64,000 bases of DNA, taken from Alphaproteobacteria bacterium. Its GTDB lineage: Bacteria > Pseudomonadota > Alphaproteobacteria > SHVP01. A program made the translations under genes and the position numbers. The stretch lies in assembly GCA_016869765.1 (NCBI GenBank), contig VGES01000008.1, positions 1 through 64,000 on the forward strand, written 5' to 3'. Of this stretch, positions 1-9,202 are shown one piece after another. Under the pieces are notes generated by a model that ran no database searches, had not been told where the DNA came from, and saw only the letters and a list, made by a program, of their open reading frames with translations. Numbering within the stretch: position 1 is the stretch's first letter; the number at the start of each line of letters is the position of its first letter.

Positions 1-104
1 TTCCTCTGAGACGTTTCATGGGTCCCTCCCGTTGCTGGCCGCGGCGAGAAACGCCCGGCTTGATGAACGCGACAGCCGCAACCACCGAGCAGCCCGGGAG
101 TCCC

Positions 105-268
105 GTGACCGATCTGCTGAGCGTCGTTCTCCGCGCCACCATCTTCGTTCAGAATCTGGATCGTTCAATCCTCATCTATCGGGGCTGCGGAGCAATCGGA
201 TTGCGGCCCGCGTCGCCCTCACCACCGATCCTGACGGACAATACTTTGAGCTTTTCCAGCGCTCCTGA
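105..268 (+). pseudogene. VOC (glyoxalase-fold) gene remnant with internal deletion
   Basis: A GTG-initiated stretch encodes LRATIFVQNLDRSI, which closely matches the N-terminus of the intact VOC protein just downstream (LRRATVFVQDLDRSI). About 30 codons later, in another frame, the DNA encodes DPDGQYFELFQRS and a stop, matching that protein's C-terminus (DPDQQFLEVFQRV). The central ~100 codons are missing and the two ends are out of frame. The simplest reading is a tandem paralogue that lost its middle. A tiny functional ORF is much less likely. Confidence 0.72.
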
Positions 269-302
269 GATTGGATAGGCTCGGGCCCAGGGGAGGACCA
301 CC

Positions 303-791
303 ATGGCTGACACTCCACACATGAGCGCGCTGCGCCGGGCCACCGTATTCGTTCAGGATCTCGATCGTTCGATCCGCTTCTACTCGGAAGCCTTCGCCAT
401 GAGCCTGTGGTTCCGGCGCGAGATGGCGCTGGTCGAAGGCTTCCCGGCGGGCGAACCCGGGCAGGGCGGCGACATGCGCTTCGTGATCTTGCGCGGCTGG
501 GACCCGCAGATCGGAATGATCGGCCTGATCGAGATCAAGAACCCACCGCTCAAGCCGCGCACCGACTATCAATTGCGTCAGGGCACGGCGGCACTCGTGG
601 TCGAAACGACCGACATGGCTCGCACCGCGGCCAAGGTCAGGGAGCTCGGCGGACGCGTCCTGCGTGGGCCTTGGGACGGGCGCAACATCGGGGATCTGAC
701 CGGGACGCCGTTTCCGGCGAAGGTCATGTTCGCGCTCGACCCCGATCAGCAGTTCCTCGAGGTCTTCCAGCGCGTCCAACCCTCGGCCTAG
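303..791 (+). CDS. VOC family protein (glyoxalase/dioxygenase fold)
   Basis: This 162-residue protein has the paired beta-alpha-beta-beta-beta layout of the vicinal oxygen chelate fold. Module one is roughly residues 8-75 and starts RRATVFVQDLDRSIRFY. Module two is roughly residues 90-160 and ends with the typical DPDQQFLEVF, whose Glu is often a metal ligand. The start follows a GGAGGACC ribosome site by four bases. The substrate cannot be read from sequence. It lies just after a decayed paralogue, and its last 4 bases overlap the convergent flotillin-like gene. Confidence 0.88.
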   Translation: MADTPHMSALRRATVFVQDLDRSIRFYSEAFAMSLWFRREMALVEGFPAGEPGQGGDMRFVILRGWDPQIGMIGLIEIKNPPLKPRTDYQLRQGTAALVVETTDMARTAAKVRELGGRVLRGPWDGRNIGDLTGTPFPAKVMFALDPDQQFLEVFQRVQPSA

Positions 792-2134
792 TCGTCGTCC
801 TTCTTGGTCGTCGCGGCGTTCGCTTGTAACGCGCTGAGCGCCGCCTTGATCGGGTCAGGTCCGTCCAACCCGACCTGCTTCAAGAGTTGGTCGACGACCG
901 GCGACTGCAGGCGATAGGCGAGGAGCGCGTTGACCAGCGACTCGGCCGGCGACGCGGAACCACCCGTGGCACCGGCGCTGCCGGTTGCGCCAGGGATGCC
1001 GCGACCACCGAGATCGATGATCTTCACGTCGCCGATTTTCTCCATCGGCTTGACCGCCTCGGCCAAGGCGAGCGGTACGATGCGCAACCGCTCCTTGGTC
1101 AATTCCATTTCGATGATGGCGGCGTTCAACGTGTTGCGCGCTTCGTTGATCAAGCGCTGGCCCTCGGCGTCGACCGTGTACTCGCGCGCCTTGCCCTCCG
1201 CCCGAATCCGCATGGCGTCGGCGTCGGCCTGCGCTTGCGTGCGGACGGCTTCGGCGAGGTCGTTGGCGGCCTGCTTCTCCGCCGTCGCCGCGATCGTACG
1301 CTTGGCAGCATCGCGCTCGGCTTCCTGGCGGGCCGCGATGACCACGATCTGGCGCTCACGTTCGGCTTTCGCGACATCGCGAGCCGTGGTCACCCCTTCC
1401 TCGGCGGAGGTCGCCAGGGCGCGGGCCTGCTCGGCACTGGCGCGGGCTTTCGATTCGTCCTCACTCTTGCGATTGACGGCGATCAGGCGGTCCTGGTCGG
1501 CGAGCGCTGCGGTCTGCTCGGCCTGAATTCGACGCTGCTTGACGGCCAGATCGGCCTCGATGACGGCGGTCTCTTGCGACTGGCGGGCGGCCGCCTGTTT
1601 TCGTGCGATCTCCAGGTCGGCCTCGATCCTGGCGGTCTGCTGGGCCTGATTGGCGGAGGCCTCGATCGCCGCCGACTCGGCTCGCGTGGTGGCCGTCTTC
1701 GACGCGACGTCGCGCTCGAGATTGAGGGTTGCATCCTGCTTCTGGCGATCGATCTCGAGGGTCCGTTGCTTGGCTTCGAGATCCTGCTGAGCGATCGCGA
1801 CTTCGGCCGCGCGAACGGTTTGATTGCGCTCCTGCTTCTTGGCTTCGGTGATGCGGGTGAGGGTGGCCAACCCTTCGGCGTCGAACGCGTTGTTCGGGTT
1901 GAAGTACTTGAAGTCTGTTTGATCGAGGCGGGTCAGCGACGCACTTTCGAGTTCGAGGCCGTTCTGTTCGAGGTCTTTGGCGACGAGCGTCTGCACCTTC
2001 TGCACGAAGACGGTGCGGTTCTCCTGAAGCTCGGCGAGCGCCATCGTCGCGGCGACGCCGCGCAGGCCGTCGACGAACTTGGCCTCGATGAGTTCGCGAA
2101 GCTGGGTGGCGTCGGTCAGGCTGAACGTCGACAT
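788..2134 (-). CDS. Flotillin-like (YqiK family) protein lacking the N-terminal membrane part
   Basis: A 448-residue protein. Residues ~1-110 resemble the second half of an SPFH domain (KVQTLVAKDLEQNGLELES, then LDQTDFKYF). Residues ~110-330 are a long Ala/Glu/Lys/Arg/Gln coiled coil, and residues ~330-448 are a flotillin C-terminus (MELTKERLRIVPLALAEAV, GGRGIPG). Flotillins usually start with a membrane anchor and a full SPFH domain and exceed 500 residues. Here the ATG sits behind a strong AGGAGGAG, so the short start looks genuine. It is the last gene of a leftward operon after pspA and an OB-fold membrane protein, a grouping tied to membrane-stress and membrane-domain organisation in other bacteria. 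Confidence 0.85.
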   Translation of the reverse strand: MSTFSLTDATQLRELIEAKFVDGLRGVAATMALAELQENRTVFVQKVQTLVAKDLEQNGLELESASLTRLDQTDFKYFNPNNAFDAEGLATLTRITEAKKQERNQTVRAAEVAIAQQDLEAKQRTLEIDRQKQDATLNLERDVASKTATTRAESAAIEASANQAQQTARIEADLEIARKQAAARQSQETAVIEADLAVKQRRIQAEQTAALADQDRLIAVNRKSEDESKARASAEQARALATSAEEGVTTARDVAKAERERQIVVIAARQEAERDAAKRTIAATAEKQAANDLAEAVRTQAQADADAMRIRAEGKAREYTVDAEGQRLINEARNTLNAAIIEMELTKERLRIVPLALAEAVKPMEKIGDVKIIDLGGRGIPGATGSAGATGGSASPAESLVNALLAYRLQSPVVDQLLKQVGLDGPDPIKAALSALQANAATTKKDDD

Positions 2135-2171
2135 GAATTCTCCTCCTGGTGCGGCGGATCGTTCGACCGCC

Positions 2172-2837
2172 TCAGCGTTGCAACGAATCCGGTGCGCGTG
2201 CGACGGCGACCGTCACGCCACGCGACTCGACCACCAACACGTTTTCGCCTTCCTCGAAGACATCCCCGGCGACGTGGGGCTCGGCTCGTGGGAAATGCGT
2301 GTTGCCACTGCGATCACGAATGCGAACTTTGGCGACCGAACCTTGGCGCACGGGACCGAGCACGACGACCCCCGTGAGGCCGACGAAATCCCCGGCTGCG
2401 AGGGCGTAGCTTTCATCGCGCGGAAACCAGCGTTGCCAGGCTCGGCTCGCGCTGCGTGTCAGCCGAAACGAAACCACGGCCGCGATGGGAACCGCGGCTG
2501 GCCACGGCAGAGGGGCGAGTATCGAACCCGCGATGCCTTGAATGACCAGGCCCGAGGCCGCGAACGTCGCCGTCAACAGCAACAGGAGGATCAGCAACGG
2601 CACGCGACCCACGTTGAGCCAATCGAGCGACTTGGCGACGAGGCCTTTGGATCCTGCCAGCCCGTCGGCGGCGCCGATGTCGTGATCGAGCGCGCCGTGG
2701 TCAAGGCCGAGTTCATGGACGACCGCCGAGAGCGGTTTGCCGACCAAACTCGTCGCAATCTCGACCACAGTAAGCCCGACGGCGACGAGCCCGGCGACCG
2801 AGAAGGGCAGGAACGGCGAGGTGGCAAGTTGCTCCAT
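2172..2837 (-). CDS. YqiJ/NfeD-like membrane protein with C-terminal OB-fold
   Basis: A 221-residue protein with hydrophobic segments near residues 8-30, 78-98 and 105-125. A soluble region at ~145-215 (AAGDFVGLTGVVVLGPVRQGSVAKVRIRD) reads as the small beta-barrel of YqiJ/NfeD partners of flotillins. The start lies behind GGGGAG. The next gene begins 37 bases downstream and encodes the flotillin-like partner, which fits the conserved YqiJ-YqiK pairing. In known families this protein sits in the inner membrane and works with the flotillin; that role is inferred here. Confidence 0.82.
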   Translation of the reverse strand: MEQLATSPFLPFSVAGLVAVGLTVVEIATSLVGKPLSAVVHELGLDHGALDHDIGAADGLAGSKGLVAKSLDWLNVGRVPLLILLLLLTATFAASGLVIQGIAGSILAPLPWPAAVPIAAVVSFRLTRSASRAWQRWFPRDESYALAAGDFVGLTGVVVLGPVRQGSVAKVRIRDRSGNTHFPRAEPHVAGDVFEEGENVLVVESRGVTVAVARAPDSLQR

Positions 2838-2850
2838 GGCGATCTCCCCG

Positions 2851-2884
2851 GCGCGGAAGGGGACAGTCTACAATCCTTCCGCGC
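2851..2884 (-). other. Perfect hairpin between pspA and the yqiJ-like gene
   Basis: The arms GCGCGGAAGG (2851-2860) and CCTTCCGCGC (2875-2884) are exact reverse complements around a 14-base loop. The hairpin lies between the pspA stop and the next gene's ribosome site. There is no T-run on the leftward strand, so it is not a standard intrinsic terminator. It could stabilise the upstream mRNA or tune read-through within the operon. Confidence 0.6.
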
Positions 2885-2890
2885 GGTGCC

Positions 2891-3553
2891 TTAGTCGCGA
2901 TTCGCCTTGAGGCGGGCGAGTCTTTCACTGATCTGGTTCTTACGGTGCATGCGGTGCAGCTCTTCGAGCACGGCGGGGTTCTCGGGCTTTGGTCCGGTGG
3001 CGACCCCGGTCAAGCGGGCCGCTACGGCCTCGGCACGTTCGACCTTGGCCTGAGCGCTGCCGATGCCACCGCCGGCGCGTCCCCCGACGCTATCCGCCGC
3101 AACGGCTTCGCGAGATTGGCGCAGATCGCGTAAACGGGCTTCCGCTTCGCGGCGGCTGGCCCGAATTGCTTCGAGCGTCGTTTCGAACTGGCCGATGCGC
3201 TCCTCGCAGTCGCCGAGGACGCGGCCGAGAAGCGCGGTCTGCGATTCGATGTCGATTTGTCGGGCGATGCCGGCTTCCGCCAAGTCGTCGCGACTGGACG
3301 ACACCGCCTTCGCCACCTTTTCGTCGAGGTCGGTGCGTTCCATCTCGAGCTCTTTGATCCGTGCGGAAACCCGATGCTTCTCGGCCATGACCTTTCCGAG
3401 CGCGCCGCGCAGCTCATCCGCGGCGCCGTCGATCTCGCGGATGGCCTGTTCCAAGGTGGCTTCCGGGCTCAGCTGTTCAGCGGCGTCCACGGCGGCGTGC
3501 GCCATGCCCGACATGACGCGCCCAATGCGTGAAAGAATGTTGTCCGTAGTCAT
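2891..3553 (-). CDS. pspA: PspA/IM30 family phage-shock membrane protein
   Basis: From the ATG at 3553 this is a 220-residue, almost wholly helical protein (MTTDNILSRIGRVMSGM). It has the PspA N-terminal amphipathic helix, then continuous coiled coil with the usual EQAIREIDGAADELR region. PspA proteins coat stressed membranes and form oligomeric scaffolds. The start is chosen because AAGGAG lies eight bases upstream and the length matches the family. Oddly, the same frame stays open for another 166 codons upstream (see 3554-4051). It heads the pspA - yqiJ-like - flotillin-like gene set. Confidence 0.85.
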   Translation of the reverse strand: MTTDNILSRIGRVMSGMAHAAVDAAEQLSPEATLEQAIREIDGAADELRGALGKVMAEKHRVSARIKELEMERTDLDEKVAKAVSSSRDDLAEAGIARQIDIESQTALLGRVLGDCEERIGQFETTLEAIRASRREAEARLRDLRQSREAVAADSVGGRAGGGIGSAQAKVERAEAVAARLTGVATGPKPENPAVLEELHRMHRKNQISERLARLKANRD

Positions 3554-4051
3554 GGTGTGCTCTCCTTCTGCTGTCGCAACGCCGATGTGGAACTCCCATT
3601 CGCCTGCCGGTGTGCGCCACAAGCGCGCGGGTACGCCACCCAACGATGTGTTTTGATAACCACGCGTAACGAACGGGATCGTGATTCGTCCGGCTGCGGT
3701 AGCGACGCTGAGGGTTGAGACGCCTCGAACCGCGTAGAGTCGTTCATCATAGGGCACGCCCTCCGTTGGCCCGCCACGGCGACGTTGCGCCCAGTCCTTG
3801 AGTGCCAACGTGATCAACTGCGAGGGGAGATCGAAGGTCGCACGGGCCCGCCCGTACCACTCGCGATGCAACGTCACGAGATTGGCGGATTGGGCTGATC
3901 CGACATTCTGGTCCAGCCAGGCGCGCAGCTCGGCGAACCGGACGAACGTCATCTCCAGCTGTTGCCGGGCCTCTTCGCCCGGGCGCAGCGCCAGAATGCA
4001 TATCGCAGGTTGGGTTCTTTGCCGCTGGGCCATGACCCAAAGATAGGCCAT
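3554..4051 (-). CDS. TnpB/OrfB N-terminal-like segment, in frame with pspA
   Basis: An open frame of about 166 codons (ATG at 4051, another at 4033) has no stop of its own and runs directly into the pspA start codon. Its content resembles the N-terminal part of IS200/IS605 TnpB proteins: NLVTLHREWYGRAR, FDLPSQLITLALK, VPYDERLYAV, then GRITIPFVTRGYQ and a short beta region. No RuvC nuclease motifs follow; PspA does. It could be a transposase remnant that lost its stop, or a domesticated domain fused to PspA. The embedded pspA ribosome site suggests PspA is also made alone. The TnpB assignment is from pattern memory. Confidence 0.45.
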
Positions 4052-4211
4052 AGGGTGCCCGAGTCAAGATGAAAAGTAATCATTTAGTCCTTTTGACAGA
4101 AGACTGCGATTTTTTTGTAGGTCAAACACGTAAGCCCCTGTTTGCGTACCGGCGCATCGGCCTCGCACCGCGACAGGCGGCGCTATAGTGTTGGCCCAAA
4201 GGGAGATCCCG

Positions 4212-5348
4212 ATGTTCCAGCCCGGTTTGCACGCGATGATGCCCGCGACGCAGCACGACGAGGACGCGCGGATGAGCTTCGTCTACCAGCTCAAGGAGCA
4301 CGTCGCGACCAAGATCGGGCCGGGAAACAAGCTGGTTTACGAGACCAGCGTCGAGCCGGCGTTTCGCAAGCGCCACGGTCGCTCGCCAAAGGATCGCCAT
4401 GAGGTGCATCGTGAGATGCGCGGTCAGGACTACTGGCGCATGTTCGGCTCGTTGTCGCGCCTCTATCAGGAACTAAAGCAGAGTTATGGCGGGGACATCG
4501 TCGATCGCCAGATCGGCGACCTCAATCAGCGGGCGCGTGGCTATCGTGAACAGGCCAAGAAGGGCTCGCTGCGGCTCGACCCGAACCTCGAAATTCCGCG
4601 CTACCAGAGCGGCGTCGACATTCACTGCCTCCCGGGCGGCTATCACACCGAACGCTCGCCCGATGATGTGACGGCGGGGGCGATGTATGACCCTGGCGTC
4701 TACTACTTCGCCATGGGCGCGATGGGCCCCTACAACGAGGACATGGGCGTGTCGATCGTCGGCTGGTTGAAGAAAACCCGGCCCCAGTTCAAGCCGCGAC
4801 GAATTCTCGACATGGGCTGCACCGTCGGTCATTGCACGACGCCCTATGTCGATGGGTTTCCGGGGGCGGAGGTCCACGCCATCGATCTGGCCGCCCCTGT
4901 GCTGCGCTATGCCCACGCTCGCGCCGAGGCGATGGGCAAGGCGGTCCATTTCGCCCAACAGAACGCCGAGCGTACAGACTACGAGGACGAGTCCTTCGAT
5001 CTCATCGTGTCGCACATCCTACTGCACGAAACGTCGTACCGGGCGGTCTACAACATCATGAAAGAGTGCCAACGCCTTTTGAAGCCGGGCGGGCTCGTCG
5101 TGCATGCCGAAGCTCCGGTGCGCAACGCCGAGATTCCGGCGTTCGATGCGTTCATGCACGACTGGGCGACGCACTACAACGCCGAGCCGTTCTGGGGCAC
5201 GCTGCACGACATGGATCTGAAGAAGCCTGCGCTCCAGGCGGGCTTCGCGGAAAAGGACGTGTTCGTCGCCTACACGCCCAAACTCTACGGCGGTGGGCCG
5301 GGTCTAACCGGGGGCGGCCAGTGGCTGCTGTACGGGGCGAACAAATAG
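4212..5348 (+). CDS. Class I SAM-dependent methyltransferase, paralogue 1 of 5
   Basis: A 378-residue protein starting at the ATG behind AAAGGGAG; an ATG eight codons earlier lacks a ribosome site. The N-terminal ~190 residues form a family-specific region (QHDEDARMSF, HGRSPKDRHEV, YQSGVDIHCLPGGYH). A Rossmann methyltransferase fold follows with motif I ILDMGCTVGHCT, acidic strand-two region EVHAIDLAAPVLRYAHARAE, SFDLIVSHILLHE, and LLKPGGLVVHAE. Four more genes in this window share the whole layout (starts near 8015, 37606, 54856, 55977). Two double-cupin genes follow immediately, suggesting a common pathway. The methyl acceptor is unknown. Confidence 0.88.
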   Translation: MFQPGLHAMMPATQHDEDARMSFVYQLKEHVATKIGPGNKLVYETSVEPAFRKRHGRSPKDRHEVHREMRGQDYWRMFGSLSRLYQELKQSYGGDIVDRQIGDLNQRARGYREQAKKGSLRLDPNLEIPRYQSGVDIHCLPGGYHTERSPDDVTAGAMYDPGVYYFAMGAMGPYNEDMGVSIVGWLKKTRPQFKPRRILDMGCTVGHCTTPYVDGFPGAEVHAIDLAAPVLRYAHARAEAMGKAVHFAQQNAERTDYEDESFDLIVSHILLHETSYRAVYNIMKECQRLLKPGGLVVHAEAPVRNAEIPAFDAFMHDWATHYNAEPFWGTLHDMDLKKPALQAGFAEKDVFVAYTPKLYGGGPGLTGGGQWLLYGANK

Positions 5349-5363
5349 CGCTCGGCCCCAGGG

Positions 5364-6209
5364 ATGGCGCGTCCCCATATCGAATTCGTACCAGCGCAGT
5401 TTCTGCCCTGGCAACGTGGCCTGTACGAAGATGTTCGTCCCGGCGTCGAAACGCGGGTGCTGAGCCGCGACTTCGACACTGGCGCCGCCAGTCTGATGTT
5501 GCGCTACCCCGCCGGCTTCGCCCGACCCGAGCGGGAGCACCTGTCCGCCGACGAAGAGTTTTTTGTGCTCGACGGCATCATCGAGATCAACGGCCAACGC
5601 TATGACCGGCATTGCTACGGCTTCTATCCGGCCGGCTACGTCCGTTACGGCGTCTACTCGGGCGCCGGGGCCGTCGTCCTCACGTTCTTTTCGCGCGAAC
5701 CGAGGGCTCGTTCGGGGATTCCCATTTTCGGACCCGACCCGGCGCGAGTCGTCCGCTGTCTCGATACACGCCGCATGGTGCCCTCGGACACCCACCGCGC
5801 GTCGATGTTCCCGGGCATCAAGCCGAGCGGGACTGTGCACAAGCGGCTGAAGACCGATCCGGCCACGGATGAGGTCACGTGGCTCGTCCTGATTCGTGGT
5901 GGATGGGCGATGACGCAGAACGAGATTCACCCGTGCGTCGAGGAGGAGTTCACGATCGCCGGTGAAATGGTCGGGCCCCACGGCACCATGCGTCCCGGGG
6001 CCTACTTCTGGCGCCCGCCCGGTATCGAGCACGGGCCGTTTGCCTCGGCGACGGGGACCATTCACTTCATTCGTGGCTTGGGTGGCCGCTACACGACCAA
6101 GCTTCGGGAGGTCGCCCCGTCGCCGTGGAACGTGCCCTACGACCCGATCCTGCCGCCGGATTACCGCCAGCACGTCGCCGGCTATCGCGATCTCGAGACC
6201 TGCTACTAG
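5364..6209 (+). CDS. Double-cupin protein, copy A
   Basis: A 281-residue bicupin. The first cupin spans about residues 35-125 (HLSADEEFFVLDG with a metal-type His/Glu pattern) and the second about residues 170-260 (EIHPCVEEEFTIAGEM, then PPGIEHGPF). Cupins of this kind bind a metal and act as dioxygenases, isomerases or small-molecule binders; the substrate is not readable. It starts 15 bases after methyltransferase 1 and is followed eight bases later by a close paralogue, so the three are probably one transcript. Confidence 0.86.
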   Translation: MARPHIEFVPAQFLPWQRGLYEDVRPGVETRVLSRDFDTGAASLMLRYPAGFARPEREHLSADEEFFVLDGIIEINGQRYDRHCYGFYPAGYVRYGVYSGAGAVVLTFFSREPRARSGIPIFGPDPARVVRCLDTRRMVPSDTHRASMFPGIKPSGTVHKRLKTDPATDEVTWLVLIRGGWAMTQNEIHPCVEEEFTIAGEMVGPHGTMRPGAYFWRPPGIEHGPFASATGTIHFIRGLGGRYTTKLREVAPSPWNVPYDPILPPDYRQHVAGYRDLETCY

Positions 6210-6217
6210 GAGACCCT

Positions 6218-7066
6218 GTGGCGCGACCACATATCGAATTCGTCCAGGCGCAGGTCATCCCGTGGCAGCGCGGCCTCTATGGCGGGTCGCGGCCGGGCAC
6301 CGAGACGCGCATCCTCAGTCTCGATGAAGACAACGGCGGGACGAGCCTGATGATTCGCTATCCGTCGGGATGGTCACGGATCGGGACGGAGCACCTCGCG
6401 GTCGACGAAGAGTTCCTCGTACTCGACGGGTCGATCGAGATCGACGGACAAGTCTACGGCAGGCTCGGCTACGGACATTTCCCACGACACTACGTCCGCC
6501 ACCGCATGTCCTCGGGCGGCGGTGCCGTCGTCATGACCTTCTTCTCGGGCGAGCCGAAAGCGATCAGCGGAACGCCGAGCGAGCCGTGTGACGTCAGGCG
6601 CCTCGTGCGCTTCATCGATGCGCTTCGGATGGAAGGAAACGAGAGCCACCGCGCCGAGATGTTCCCGGGCCTCAAGCCGGGCGGTGCCTTGCACAAGCGT
6701 CTGAAGACCGATCCCGTGACCGAGGAGGTCACGTGGATCGTCATGATCCGCGGTGGTCGGATCATGGAGCAAAACGAGATCCACCCGGTCGTCGAGGAGG
6801 AGTTCTCGCTCTCGGGCGACCAGATCGGCCCACGCGGCAACATGCGACCCGGCGCCTACTTCTGGCGTCCCCCCGGAATCCAACACGGGCCGTTCGGCAC
6901 GGCGACCGGAACGACCCACCTCGTGCGCGGCATCGGGGGCAAATACACGACCAGGCTGCAGGACGTGCCCGGGCCGTTCCCCTGGGACACGCCCTACAAC
7001 CCGATCCTGCCGCCCGCCTACCAGGAATACGTCCGCGCCTACGCCGATCGCGAAACCAGCTACTGA
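6218..7066 (+). CDS. Double-cupin protein, copy B
   Basis: A 282-residue bicupin paralogous end to end to the preceding gene; both begin ARPHIEFV and end with a Y-rich tail (ETSY versus ETCY). The start is the GTG at 6218, with AGGAG just upstream and the N-terminus aligned to copy A; the reading frame opens earlier but unsupported. Cupin one holds HLAVDEEFLVLDGSIEI; cupin two holds EIHPVVEEEFSLSGD and PPGIQHGPF. Metal-ligand positions are kept in both domains, so both copies look active. Divergence between copies suggests related but distinct substrates. Confidence 0.86.
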   Translation: MARPHIEFVQAQVIPWQRGLYGGSRPGTETRILSLDEDNGGTSLMIRYPSGWSRIGTEHLAVDEEFLVLDGSIEIDGQVYGRLGYGHFPRHYVRHRMSSGGGAVVMTFFSGEPKAISGTPSEPCDVRRLVRFIDALRMEGNESHRAEMFPGLKPGGALHKRLKTDPVTEEVTWIVMIRGGRIMEQNEIHPVVEEEFSLSGDQIGPRGNMRPGAYFWRPPGIQHGPFGTATGTTHLVRGIGGKYTTRLQDVPGPFPWDTPYNPILPPAYQEYVRAYADRETSY

Positions 7067-7080
7067 GGGACGTTCTTCGT

Positions 7081-7380
7081 TCAGTGACTGGAGGCCAGCG
7101 CCTCGATGATCGTGACCTCGAGGTCGGCCTTGCCCTCGCGCGTCTTCTTGGCCGCGAGGTAGTCGGGATCGGCTTAGAACGCCTTGGCCGTCGCGACGTC
7201 GGGGAATTCGATGAGCACGATCGAACCGGTCTGGGATGCTCCTTCGATGGCCGCAGGGTGGCGGTCGTTCGCGAGCAGACGCCCACGATACTTCTCGAGG
7301 AGCGGCGGCATGCGGTCGCGATACTGATCCATGGCGCCCGGTACGCGAATCGTGACGCGGATGATGGCATAGGCTGTCAT
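7081..7380 (-). pseudogene. DUF1330 family gene interrupted by an in-frame TAA
   Basis: The frame from the ATG at 7380 encodes a normal DUF1330 start (MTAYAIIRVTIRVPGAMDQY) and core FPDVATAKAF. It then hits TAA at 7174-7176. Past the stop the same frame continues perfectly as ADPDYLAAKKTREGKADLEV and ends ALASSH at a TGA (7081-7083), giving the family's usual length of ~95-99 residues. The family usually has Tyr right after AF, so TAC or TAT to TAA is a one-base change. The gene is either freshly inactivated or read through. Confidence 0.85.
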
Positions 7381-7388
7381 GGCGAGCC

Positions 7389-7817
7389 TCAGCGCTTGGG
7401 CGCGGGTTCGGTGATCGCCGGCACACCGGTCGGAACCGTCCCCTCGTGATGATGCCGGCGTAGCCACTGGCCGTTGGTGCGCCGAAAGACGTCGGTGATG
7501 CGAATACGGCCAGACATCGCATTCGGCGGCTGGTACACGAAGTTGAGGTAGTACAGGGCGAGCGCCGTGTCCGCCCAAATGTCGACCAGCACCGGTTCCT
7601 CGACGTTGATCGTCAATTTGCCGCGCTTCTTCGACTGCTCGACGTCGTTCTTGCGAAATCGGGCGCGTCCTTCGGCCCCGACGAACAATTCGGGCTCGAA
7701 CATGTCCCAGATCGTATGATCGGGGTGGTCCATGACCTTCATGCCCTCGATCGAGTGCGCGGCGAAGGCCGCGAAGTTGGCCTTGATCATCCGGACGAGT
7801 TCGTCTTTCTCGCTCAT
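7389..7817 (-). CDS. SnoaL/NTF2-like protein
   Basis: A 142-residue protein with the NTF2-like cone: an N-terminal helix (ELVRMIKANFAAFAAHSIE), a central TIWDMFEPE segment, and a C-terminal strand ending RRTNGQWLRRHHHEG, typical of SnoaL-like/DUF4440-type folds. The ATG at 7817 follows GGAAGGAAG; an in-frame ATG 20 codons earlier has no ribosome site. It sits eight bases upstream of the broken DUF1330 gene on the same strand, so the two probably formed an operon. Members bind or isomerise small molecules; the ligand is unknown. Confidence 0.8.
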   Translation of the reverse strand: MSEKDELVRMIKANFAAFAAHSIEGMKVMDHPDHTIWDMFEPELFVGAEGRARFRKNDVEQSKKRGKLTINVEEPVLVDIWADTALALYYLNFVYQPPNAMSGRIRITDVFRRTNGQWLRRHHHEGTVPTGVPAITEPAPKR

Positions 7818-8014
7818 TGGTCTTCCTTCCCCGAGATTGGCTCGGAACGATAGCGCAGGGCGCTCGTGTTGGCTCATTAGACGGCATGCCGGGGGAATTC
7901 AGTTTCTCTATCGCAAACCCCGAGAGGATTGGGGATATCGGCTCCCCACGGGTGTGGAGATGGCCGGGCTCCGGGGCTAAGATTTGCCGATACGCCATCA
8001 GTAGCGAGGACATC

Positions 8015-9202
8015 ATGGTCGTTCAAGTTTCCGAGCCGTTCCCTCACGCGATGATGCCGCGGGCCAACCACGACGAGTTGGCGCGACAGAACGCGACGCT
8101 GGGGATCAAGTTGTTCATGACTTACAACGTCTATCCCGGTGACGAGGTCGTCTACGAGAGGGAGGCCAAGCCGCGCTTCGTTCGTACGAAGGGCCGGGCG
8201 CCCAAGGACAAGAATGAGGTGCGTGAGCTGATGCTACAGCAGCCGTTCACGCAAACTTGGAGCTCGATCGCACGGACGCTGCAGGAGATGCTCTGGTACA
8301 ACGTCGGCGAGTGCATCGATCGCCAACTTCCCGAACTGAAGGAGAAGGCGCGGGACCTGCACAAGAGGGCCAAGGGGACCCTGAGGGTCAACGAGAAGAT
8401 GGAGGTGCCGCGCTACCTCTCGGCGGTCGACATTCACTGCGCGCCGGGCAGCTACGGCGTCGACCTCGGGGATGACGACGTGTTCGCCGGCGCGCTCTAC
8501 GACCGCGGCGCCTACTATTACGCCAAGGGGTTGGTCGGACCGAAGAACGATACGACGGGTCGCGGTTTGGTCTTCGTCTTCAAACAGAAATACCCGAACT
8601 TCAAGCCCAAGCGGATCCTCGACCTGGGATGCGCGGTCGGCGGCTCGACGCTGCCGTGGAAAGACGCTTATCCCGATGCCGAGGTCTATGGCATCGACGT
8701 GGGTGCTCCGCTCATGCGCTATGCTCATGCGCGCGCCGAAGCATTGGGCAAAAAGATCCACTACAGCCAGCAGAACGGCGAGAAGACCGACTTTCCAGAC
8801 GACTTCTTCGATATCGTCGCGACTGCGGGCGTGTTCCACGAGACATCGCACAGCGCGTCGCGGAACATCATGAAGGAGGTCTTCCGTGTCCTTCGTCCGG
8901 GTGGGATCTCGATCAACTCGGACATCCCGCACCAGCACTACAACAACATCCACGATCAGTGGATGCTCGACTGGGATTGTCACTACAACGCCGAGCCGTT
9001 CTGGGCCCAGTGGACCTCGATGACCTCGAAGGAACTGATGGGGCAGGCGGGCTTCCCGGCCAACAAGGTCTGGGAGTGCTGGCGCGACCGCGACCACAAG
9101 GGCAATTTCTTCCTGCACGACCAGCCCAAGTCTTCGCCCAAGGAATCGAACCAGGGCGGGATCGGCAAGGGCGTGTTCTGGGGGGTCGTGAAGCCTGCGT
9201 AA
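8015..9202 (+). CDS. Class I SAM-dependent methyltransferase, paralogue 2 of 5
   Basis: A 395-residue member of the same family as the gene at 4212. It has the hallmark NHDELARQN opening, GRAPKDKNEVRELM, QTWSSIARTLQEMLWYNVGE, YLSAVDIHCAPGSYG, then motif I ILDLGCAVGGST and GAPLMRYAHARAEALGKKIH. The tail (DRDHKGNFFLHDQPK and on) is longer than in the other paralogues. The start is the ATG at 8015 behind GCGAGGA. The gene ends just before a strong hairpin shared with the convergent peptidase gene. Acceptor unknown. Confidence 0.88.
   Translation: MVVQVSEPFPHAMMPRANHDELARQNATLGIKLFMTYNVYPGDEVVYEREAKPRFVRTKGRAPKDKNEVRELMLQQPFTQTWSSIARTLQEMLWYNVGECIDRQLPELKEKARDLHKRAKGTLRVNEKMEVPRYLSAVDIHCAPGSYGVDLGDDDVFAGALYDRGAYYYAKGLVGPKNDTTGRGLVFVFKQKYPNFKPKRILDLGCAVGGSTLPWKDAYPDAEVYGIDVGAPLMRYAHARAEALGKKIHYSQQNGEKTDFPDDFFDIVATAGVFHETSHSASRNIMKEVFRVLRPGGISINSDIPHQHYNNIHDQWMLDWDCHYNAEPFWAQWTSMTSKELMGQAGFPANKVWECWRDRDHKGNFFLHDQPKSSPKESNQGGIGKGVFWGVVKPA

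Follow-up and report, generated by a model that had tools for sequence, protein, structure and literature searches.

We analysed a 64,000-nucleotide (nt) stretch of DNA from an Alphaproteobacteria bacterium (GTDB lineage SHVP01; contig VGES01000008.1, positions 1 to 64,000), hereafter the window, in which a single open frame of 386 amino acids on the minus strand (2891-4051) joins a segment related to TnpB, a transposon protein and the ancestor of CRISPR-Cas12, to the membrane-stress protein PspA. The N-terminal segment (157-166 amino acids) holds a TnpB/Cas12-type WED-REC lobe (3563..4033, minus strand) and continues without a stop into a PspA/IM30 domain of the ESCRT-III family (2891..3553, minus strand). 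PF04012 (PspA_IM30) covers residues 171-341 of the frame (E 3.8e-13, 50 bits against a cut-off of 33.9), and in a model of the full-length protein the PspA part is best matched by Vipp1 and PspA structures using Foldseek, so that both a family profile above its cut-off and the ESCRT-III fold identify the C-terminal part as PspA/IM30. In the same model the lobe is joined immediately before the first PspA helix. The PspA domain retains an internal ATG of its own (3553-3551, minus strand) preceded by the Shine-Dalgarno sequence AAGGAG (3562..3567, read 3567-3562 on the minus strand), both lying within the long frame, while the genes for YqiJ and a flotillin follow directly downstream on the same strand, as in PspA-YqiJ-flotillin operons. 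The RuvC domain (PF01385) and the zinc ribbon (PF07282) are both absent from the window's fusion protein (P0001), which carries PspA in their place; no RuvC follows the lobe, and PF01385 has no match anywhere in the genome at E<=0.001. The first-pass annotation had described a stop-free frame of about 166 codons leading into the pspA ATG, an AAGGAG site embedded in it and the lack of a RuvC part, and all three descriptions hold. The protein is TnpB-derived and is not itself a TnpB. We assign a probability of about 0.7 to the reading that this gene encodes a fusion of a TnpB lobe with PspA and gives rise to two products.

The identity of the N-terminal segment had to be sought by profile and fold comparison because the segment alone, used as a single query sequence against Pfam, NCBIfam, PHROGs and PDB sequences, returned no convincing match. 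An AlphaFold2 model of the lobe based on 30 sequences was of high confidence (predicted local distance difference test 93.5, predicted template modelling score 0.86) and has, in order, one strand, three helices and six strands. In a Foldseek search of the PDB ranks 1-8 were taken by Cas12f, ISDra2 TnpB, Fanzor2, Cas12k and TranC, the best matches being the Cas12f1 structure 9i8y (E 7.3e-3) and the TnpB structure 8exa (E 8.7e-3), each with a probability of 1.00. Comparison by VIA-align gave a Z of 11.7 for 8j3r and of 11.5 for 8exa over 138 residues of TnpB 2..178, and every one of the 50 matches listed (Z 11.7-6.1) was a TnpB, Fanzor2, TranC or Cas12-type protein. All three methods therefore find in the lobe the WED-REC N-lobe fold of TnpB (IS605 OrfB). 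As its best structural counterparts are Cas12f and residues 1-178 of ISDra2 TnpB, the modelled lobe is a TnpB/Cas12 WED-REC module that stops where RuvC would begin, the name and borders of the module, including this end, being those we take to apply. At the level of sequence profiles the lobe matched a complete TnpB, P0003 of genome G396, with an E-value of 3.9e-9 in a search of the phylum (7.5e-12 when a 30-member lobe profile was run against a set of 110 frames). P0003 carries both PF07282 (E 6.5e-23) and PF01385 (E 3.1e-12). Profile-profile comparison of the lobe with 19 other TnpB frames, P0003 excluded, gave P 6e-4 in local and 3.6e-5 in global mode over 143-165 columns. The likeness to the N-terminal part of TnpB noted at first pass is thus borne out by the profile and structure comparisons that had been proposed as its check.

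The fusion is widespread among alphaproteobacteria. With the N-terminal segment as query, 385 genomes of the class gave 14 with a match (E<=0.01). Five of these, among them the window's own genome, matched strongly (E 1.7e-18 or better), and in each the segment continues in frame into PspA. Ten weak matches, spread over nine genomes (E 5e-4 to 0.0095), were not counted as members, three of these (L017, L018 and L019) being dissimilar by eye. The segment as a single sequence found no relative in a scan of genome_contigs; an alignment of five N-terminal segments, restricted to the lobe, gave 320 pattern matches and 190 relatives, and in all of the best 80, which were kept, lobe and PspA lie in one open frame. 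By title the best 80 are alphaproteobacterial (a few are given simply as Proteobacteria) with the exception of one labelled Frankia, and they include Rhizobium, Bradyrhizobium, Ensifer, Neorhizobium, Vineibacter, Reyranella, Dongia, Microvirga and other genera. The copy labelled Frankia (Frankia sp. RB7, L101) is Bradyrhizobium-like and its genome is probably mislabelled or contaminated. Across 398 genomes of the phylum 15 matched at E<=0.01, comprising nine with the fusion, G396 with its TnpB and five weaker matches. Nine other genomes of the window's order, one of them 64% complete, yielded no fusion, and a scan of viral contigs with A4 found no relative. On plasmids of Rhizobium, Agrobacterium, Bosea and Shinella the gene is annotated from the long start, as a PspA/IM30 family protein. 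Once identical frames had been dropped there were 87 distinct fused members, and the check in relatives that was suggested at first pass had a clear outcome, with no stop between the two parts in any of the 87.

Conservation of the N-terminal segment at the protein level in these 87 members places it far beyond a chance frame. Of 15 close pairs, 14 had a ratio of nonsynonymous to synonymous substitution rates (dN/dS) of 0.03-0.16 in the lobe; the remaining pair, with a dS of 0.068, had 0.44. In the PspA part the ratio was 0.04-0.15 in close pairs. The fusion is retained under purifying selection. Long chance frames do occur in the window, which could suggest that the segment is an untranslated or meaningless frame in GC-rich DNA attached to a plain PspA gene, but protein-level conservation, the low dN/dS and the confident fold make this hardly credible. 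The distances of lobe and PspA part among 30 representatives are closely correlated (r 0.90; none of 2000 permutations was as high), and a FastTree phylogeny of PspA parts puts the 30 fused proteins in a single group beside four unfused ones. The fusion of the TnpB-type lobe probably arose once in Alphaproteobacteria.

The lobe differs from its TnpB counterparts in charge. Its median net charge is 0 (-7 to +5, n=30) versus +17.5 (10 to 25) for the TnpB lobes, the latter taken from those of 19 TnpB frames whose RuvC motif could be located (n=18). Because the positive charge of TnpB has been lost, binding of a guide RNA by the lobe is unlikely, judging from its sequence. The WED-REC module is part of the guide-holding lobe of TnpB and Cas12, and the fold match could accordingly be read as a sign that the lobe retains a small RNA as its guide and has a regulatory role like that of the TnpB-like nuclease-dead repressors (TldRs). 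We consider this very improbable given the lost charge and the lack of any Rfam match in window positions 1-8000. RuvC and the zinc ribbon are moreover absent here, whereas TldRs are described, in the parts of PMC13418256 covered here, as guide-RNA-dependent TnpBs with a mutated, inactive RuvC. The first-pass description of a domesticated guide-RNA-nuclease fragment fused to PspA is upheld as regards the fused TnpB-type lobe and weakened as regards guide RNA.

We mapped two candidate translation starts onto the gene. The frame is open from ATG 4051, one of the two long starts put forward at first pass, but the other, ATG 4033 (M7), is likely the better one, lying 6 nt after the -10 box TATCTT (4045-4040, minus strand) of a promoter TTGACT-N16-TATCTT (4040..4067, minus strand; one found versus a mean of 0.1 in shuffles), and the start was moved there. 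In 85 of the 87 members a promoter palindrome ends in a -10 hexamer that is followed, at a distance of 5-8 nt, by an in-frame ATG or GTG, the two exceptions to this arrangement being the window's gene and L031, and in none of the 85 is the long start preceded by a Shine-Dalgarno sequence of at least 5 nt. This close spacing without a strong Shine-Dalgarno sequence makes the long form look as if it starts leaderless at the ATG of the lobe. The internal PspA ATG on the other hand is present in all 87 members and has a Shine-Dalgarno sequence of at least 5 nt in 79, versus a mean of 42.3 and a maximum of 51 in 200 rounds of codon resampling; for the 30 representatives the corresponding figures are 25 versus a mean of 10.9 and a maximum of 18 (400 rounds). 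Such a sequence precedes only 6 of 375 other in-frame Met codons. It is conceivable that the long protein alone is made and that the internal site is an incidental product of linker glutamates, Glu-Glu codons giving many Shine-Dalgarno-like sites as the resampled mean itself attests. We regard this as unlikely, since the observed counts exceed every resampling, the ATG is invariant, and the same AAGGAG stands ahead of the PspA ATG in an unfused sister operon (L162). One message with two starts, a leaderless one at the lobe and a Shine-Dalgarno-directed one at PspA, would be the natural reading of these signals.

The promoters of the relatives share a palindrome that separates the -35 box from the -10 box. 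Most Rhizobiales have it as AAAGCAC-N7-GTGCTTT, and AAAGGAT, AAAGTAT and further variants are seen in other members. Scored by its best 8-nt arms, a palindrome agreeing at 7 or more positions is present in 78 of the 87 members and in 49 of 435 shuffles, although in a few members these arms were found elsewhere and anchoring on the element itself gives 71 of 87. In the window the counterpart of this putative operator is an imperfect palindrome, AAAAGGAC-N7-TTACTTTT (4072..4094, minus strand). Ten genomes scanned for the Rhizobiales form with up to one mismatch have the site at the fusion gene in every case, and just one further place was found, in one genome. No upstream gene was common to four or more of the compared loci (24 loci named, two of them removed duplicates). 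The restriction of the palindrome to the fusion promoter and the lack of an adjoining regulator gene suggest, by exclusion, that the regulator reading it is encoded in the operon, though an unlinked regulator is possible. The lobe is the candidate, being the one part of the operon whose fold is related to that of nucleic-acid enzymes. An RNA hairpin formed by the arms was considered and found less likely. In L031 the half-sites are rearranged around what is likely a -10 box, and a third half-site is present in the promoters of Bradyrhizobium (both by eye), which makes a DNA operator the more likely interpretation of the sequence.

From these features we infer a mechanism for the fusion. A WED-REC lobe devoid of RuvC and zinc ribbon, joined to PspA at the head of a membrane-stress operon that also encodes YqiJ and flotillin, would be produced from a single transcript as a long form, starting leaderless at the lobe ATG, alongside a short, ordinary PspA from the internal Shine-Dalgarno sequence and ATG. 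Oligomerisation of PspA would gather the lobes, which would repress the operon by binding the palindrome private to their own promoter, between its -35 and -10 boxes, and repression would be lifted when the PspA part is drawn to a stressed membrane. Autoregulatory DNA binding by the lobe is the leading function we propose, tentatively and at less than even odds. In a more specific form of this proposal, which we consider rather doubtful, the lobe would be a guide-free, sequence-specific DNA-binding domain acting on paired T-rich half-sites (GTGC-TTTA) of its own promoter and coupling membrane damage to transcription, with the second start providing a free effector; by analogy these half-sites might be likened to a target-adjacent motif. 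The lobe may instead be a protein-interaction or assembly-control part that governs the solubility or polymerisation of long PspA with YqiJ and flotillin, the ratio of long to short form tuning this and an unlinked factor reading the palindrome. The neutral charge of the lobe, its position directly before the first PspA helix and the constant presence of the membrane partners YqiJ and flotillin would all fit this alternative, which is a real possibility if short of probable, whereas the palindrome private to the fusion gene in ten genomes (bar one place with one mismatch), the lack of a conserved regulator gene beside it and the nucleic-acid binding of known relatives of the fold speak against it.

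Several observations weigh against the fusion and its proposed regulatory role as set out above. The Foldseek E-values of the lobe are modest, none being <=0.001, and the profile-profile probability against the 19 TnpBs is only 29-45%. Among TnpB loci the lobe profile matched only L111, its duplicate L143 and the phage locus L117, leaving canonical TnpBs unmatched. The node uniting all fused PspAs has a support of 0.24, the neutral charge of the lobe does not favour DNA binding either, and the window's own palindrome, besides being imperfect, lies upstream of a shifted promoter.

The downstream genes are as constant as the fusion itself. YqiJ (YqiJ_N and YqiJ_OB; 2172..2837, minus strand; PF21001, PF07290) follows on the same strand in 87 of 87 members, and the YqiK-like flotillin, the third gene (788..2134, minus strand; PF15975 E 2.7e-33, with positions 84-174 of the 176 of the Band_7 profile at residues 9-100), in all 78 for which 3.6 kb or more was available. 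The window's flotillin, at 448 amino acids, apparently lacks its N-terminal part, annotated relatives having about 560-581. On a Vitreoscilla plasmid and in two loci from other classes (L162 and L165) the PspA-YqiJ-flotillin order follows a separate protein of 150-177 amino acids, and the Vitreoscilla protein does not match the lobe profile. A ribbon-helix-helix identity proposed by eye for this type of upstream protein (A6) was unsupported by Pfam (E up to 10) or PDB sequences; we claim only that the protein is a separate one and that, in the case of Vitreoscilla, the lobe profile does not match it. The separate first proteins of unfused operons lie at L154:3105-3638, L162:987-1505 and L165:714-1166.

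The fusion resembles a number of known systems in part. It shares with TnpB (IS200/IS605 OrfB; ISDra2 TnpB 8exa/8h1j) and Cas12f the WED-REC fold over 125-142 residues together with a profile match, and differs from them in having no RuvC and no zinc ribbon, in its neutral charge and in the attached PspA. As in TldRs, a TnpB has been domesticated to a cellular role, possibly in transcriptional control, but the RuvC part is absent altogether rather than mutated, so the protein does not qualify as a TldR. By PF04012 and by fold the C-terminal domain is of the PspA/IM30/Vipp1 (bacterial ESCRT-III) kind, which is distinguished from the fusion by lacking an N-terminal lobe of nuclease origin. More than 98% of PspA homologues show little variation in domain architecture and the fusions named include NlpC/P60 and PspAA, according to the portions of PMC11237479 covered here. 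In the CesT/Tir-PspA class outlined in the same portions, as in the Vitreoscilla type, PspA likewise occurs with YqiJ and flotillin, but the upstream slot is filled by a separate, apparently unrelated protein where the fusion family has a fused TnpB lobe.

The lobe-PspA architecture is not mentioned in the covered parts of two phage shock protein surveys (PMC11237479, PMC9239133), nor the fusion in those of PMC5936775, PMC11406972, PMC5575495, PMC13418256 and PMC2636767. Literature searches on PspA, TnpB, rhizobia and the palindrome, with a coverage that omits most subscription papers and bioRxiv, returned no report of it. PspA fusions and TnpB domestications are each known, and their combination without the RuvC half appears to be new within the searches made. 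A PspA induced by acid in R. tropici CIAT 899 is given as RS28825 in the part of PMC5936775 covered; it was not used as evidence of expression, an R. tropici fusion gene having no nucleotide match in the plasmid collection, which includes pRtrCIAT899c, and that record being missing from the protein matches as well. The pspA of R. leguminosarum, RL1106, was not taken into account, as it is probably a different gene, going by tag number only.

What is left of TnpB in the fusion protein is the non-catalytic lobe alone, carried by a conserved membrane-stress gene of Rhizobium, Bradyrhizobium and further alphaproteobacteria. To our knowledge other TnpB domestications (TldR, Cas12) all keep the whole protein and a guide RNA. 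The fusion thus offers a test case for the function of a WED-REC lobe without RNA and RuvC, and also for the control of PspA operons that have no adjoining regulator gene. If the proposal is true, a DNA-binding lobe on an ESCRT-III protein would tie membrane damage straight to transcription.

We also noted an 89-amino-acid frame (L116:1414-1680) in a genome of the same class that looks like a decayed fragment of the lobe (E 2.5e-4) and is perhaps a pseudogene. A phage contig (L117:1480-1947; IMGVR_UViG_3300023313_000004) encodes a stand-alone TnpB N-lobe of 155 amino acids without RuvC (profile E 1.2e-8); a search for a second phage copy of this type found none, and its neighbours include open reading frames (ORFs) resembling ParB and terminase genes by eye. 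Divergent from the operon, the window carries at 4188-9202 on the plus strand two methyltransferase-like ORFs (4188-5348 and 7817-9202) forming an apparent paralogue pair, and two look-alike ORFs (5364-6209 and 6125-7066, plus strand) within the same stretch form a second apparent pair.
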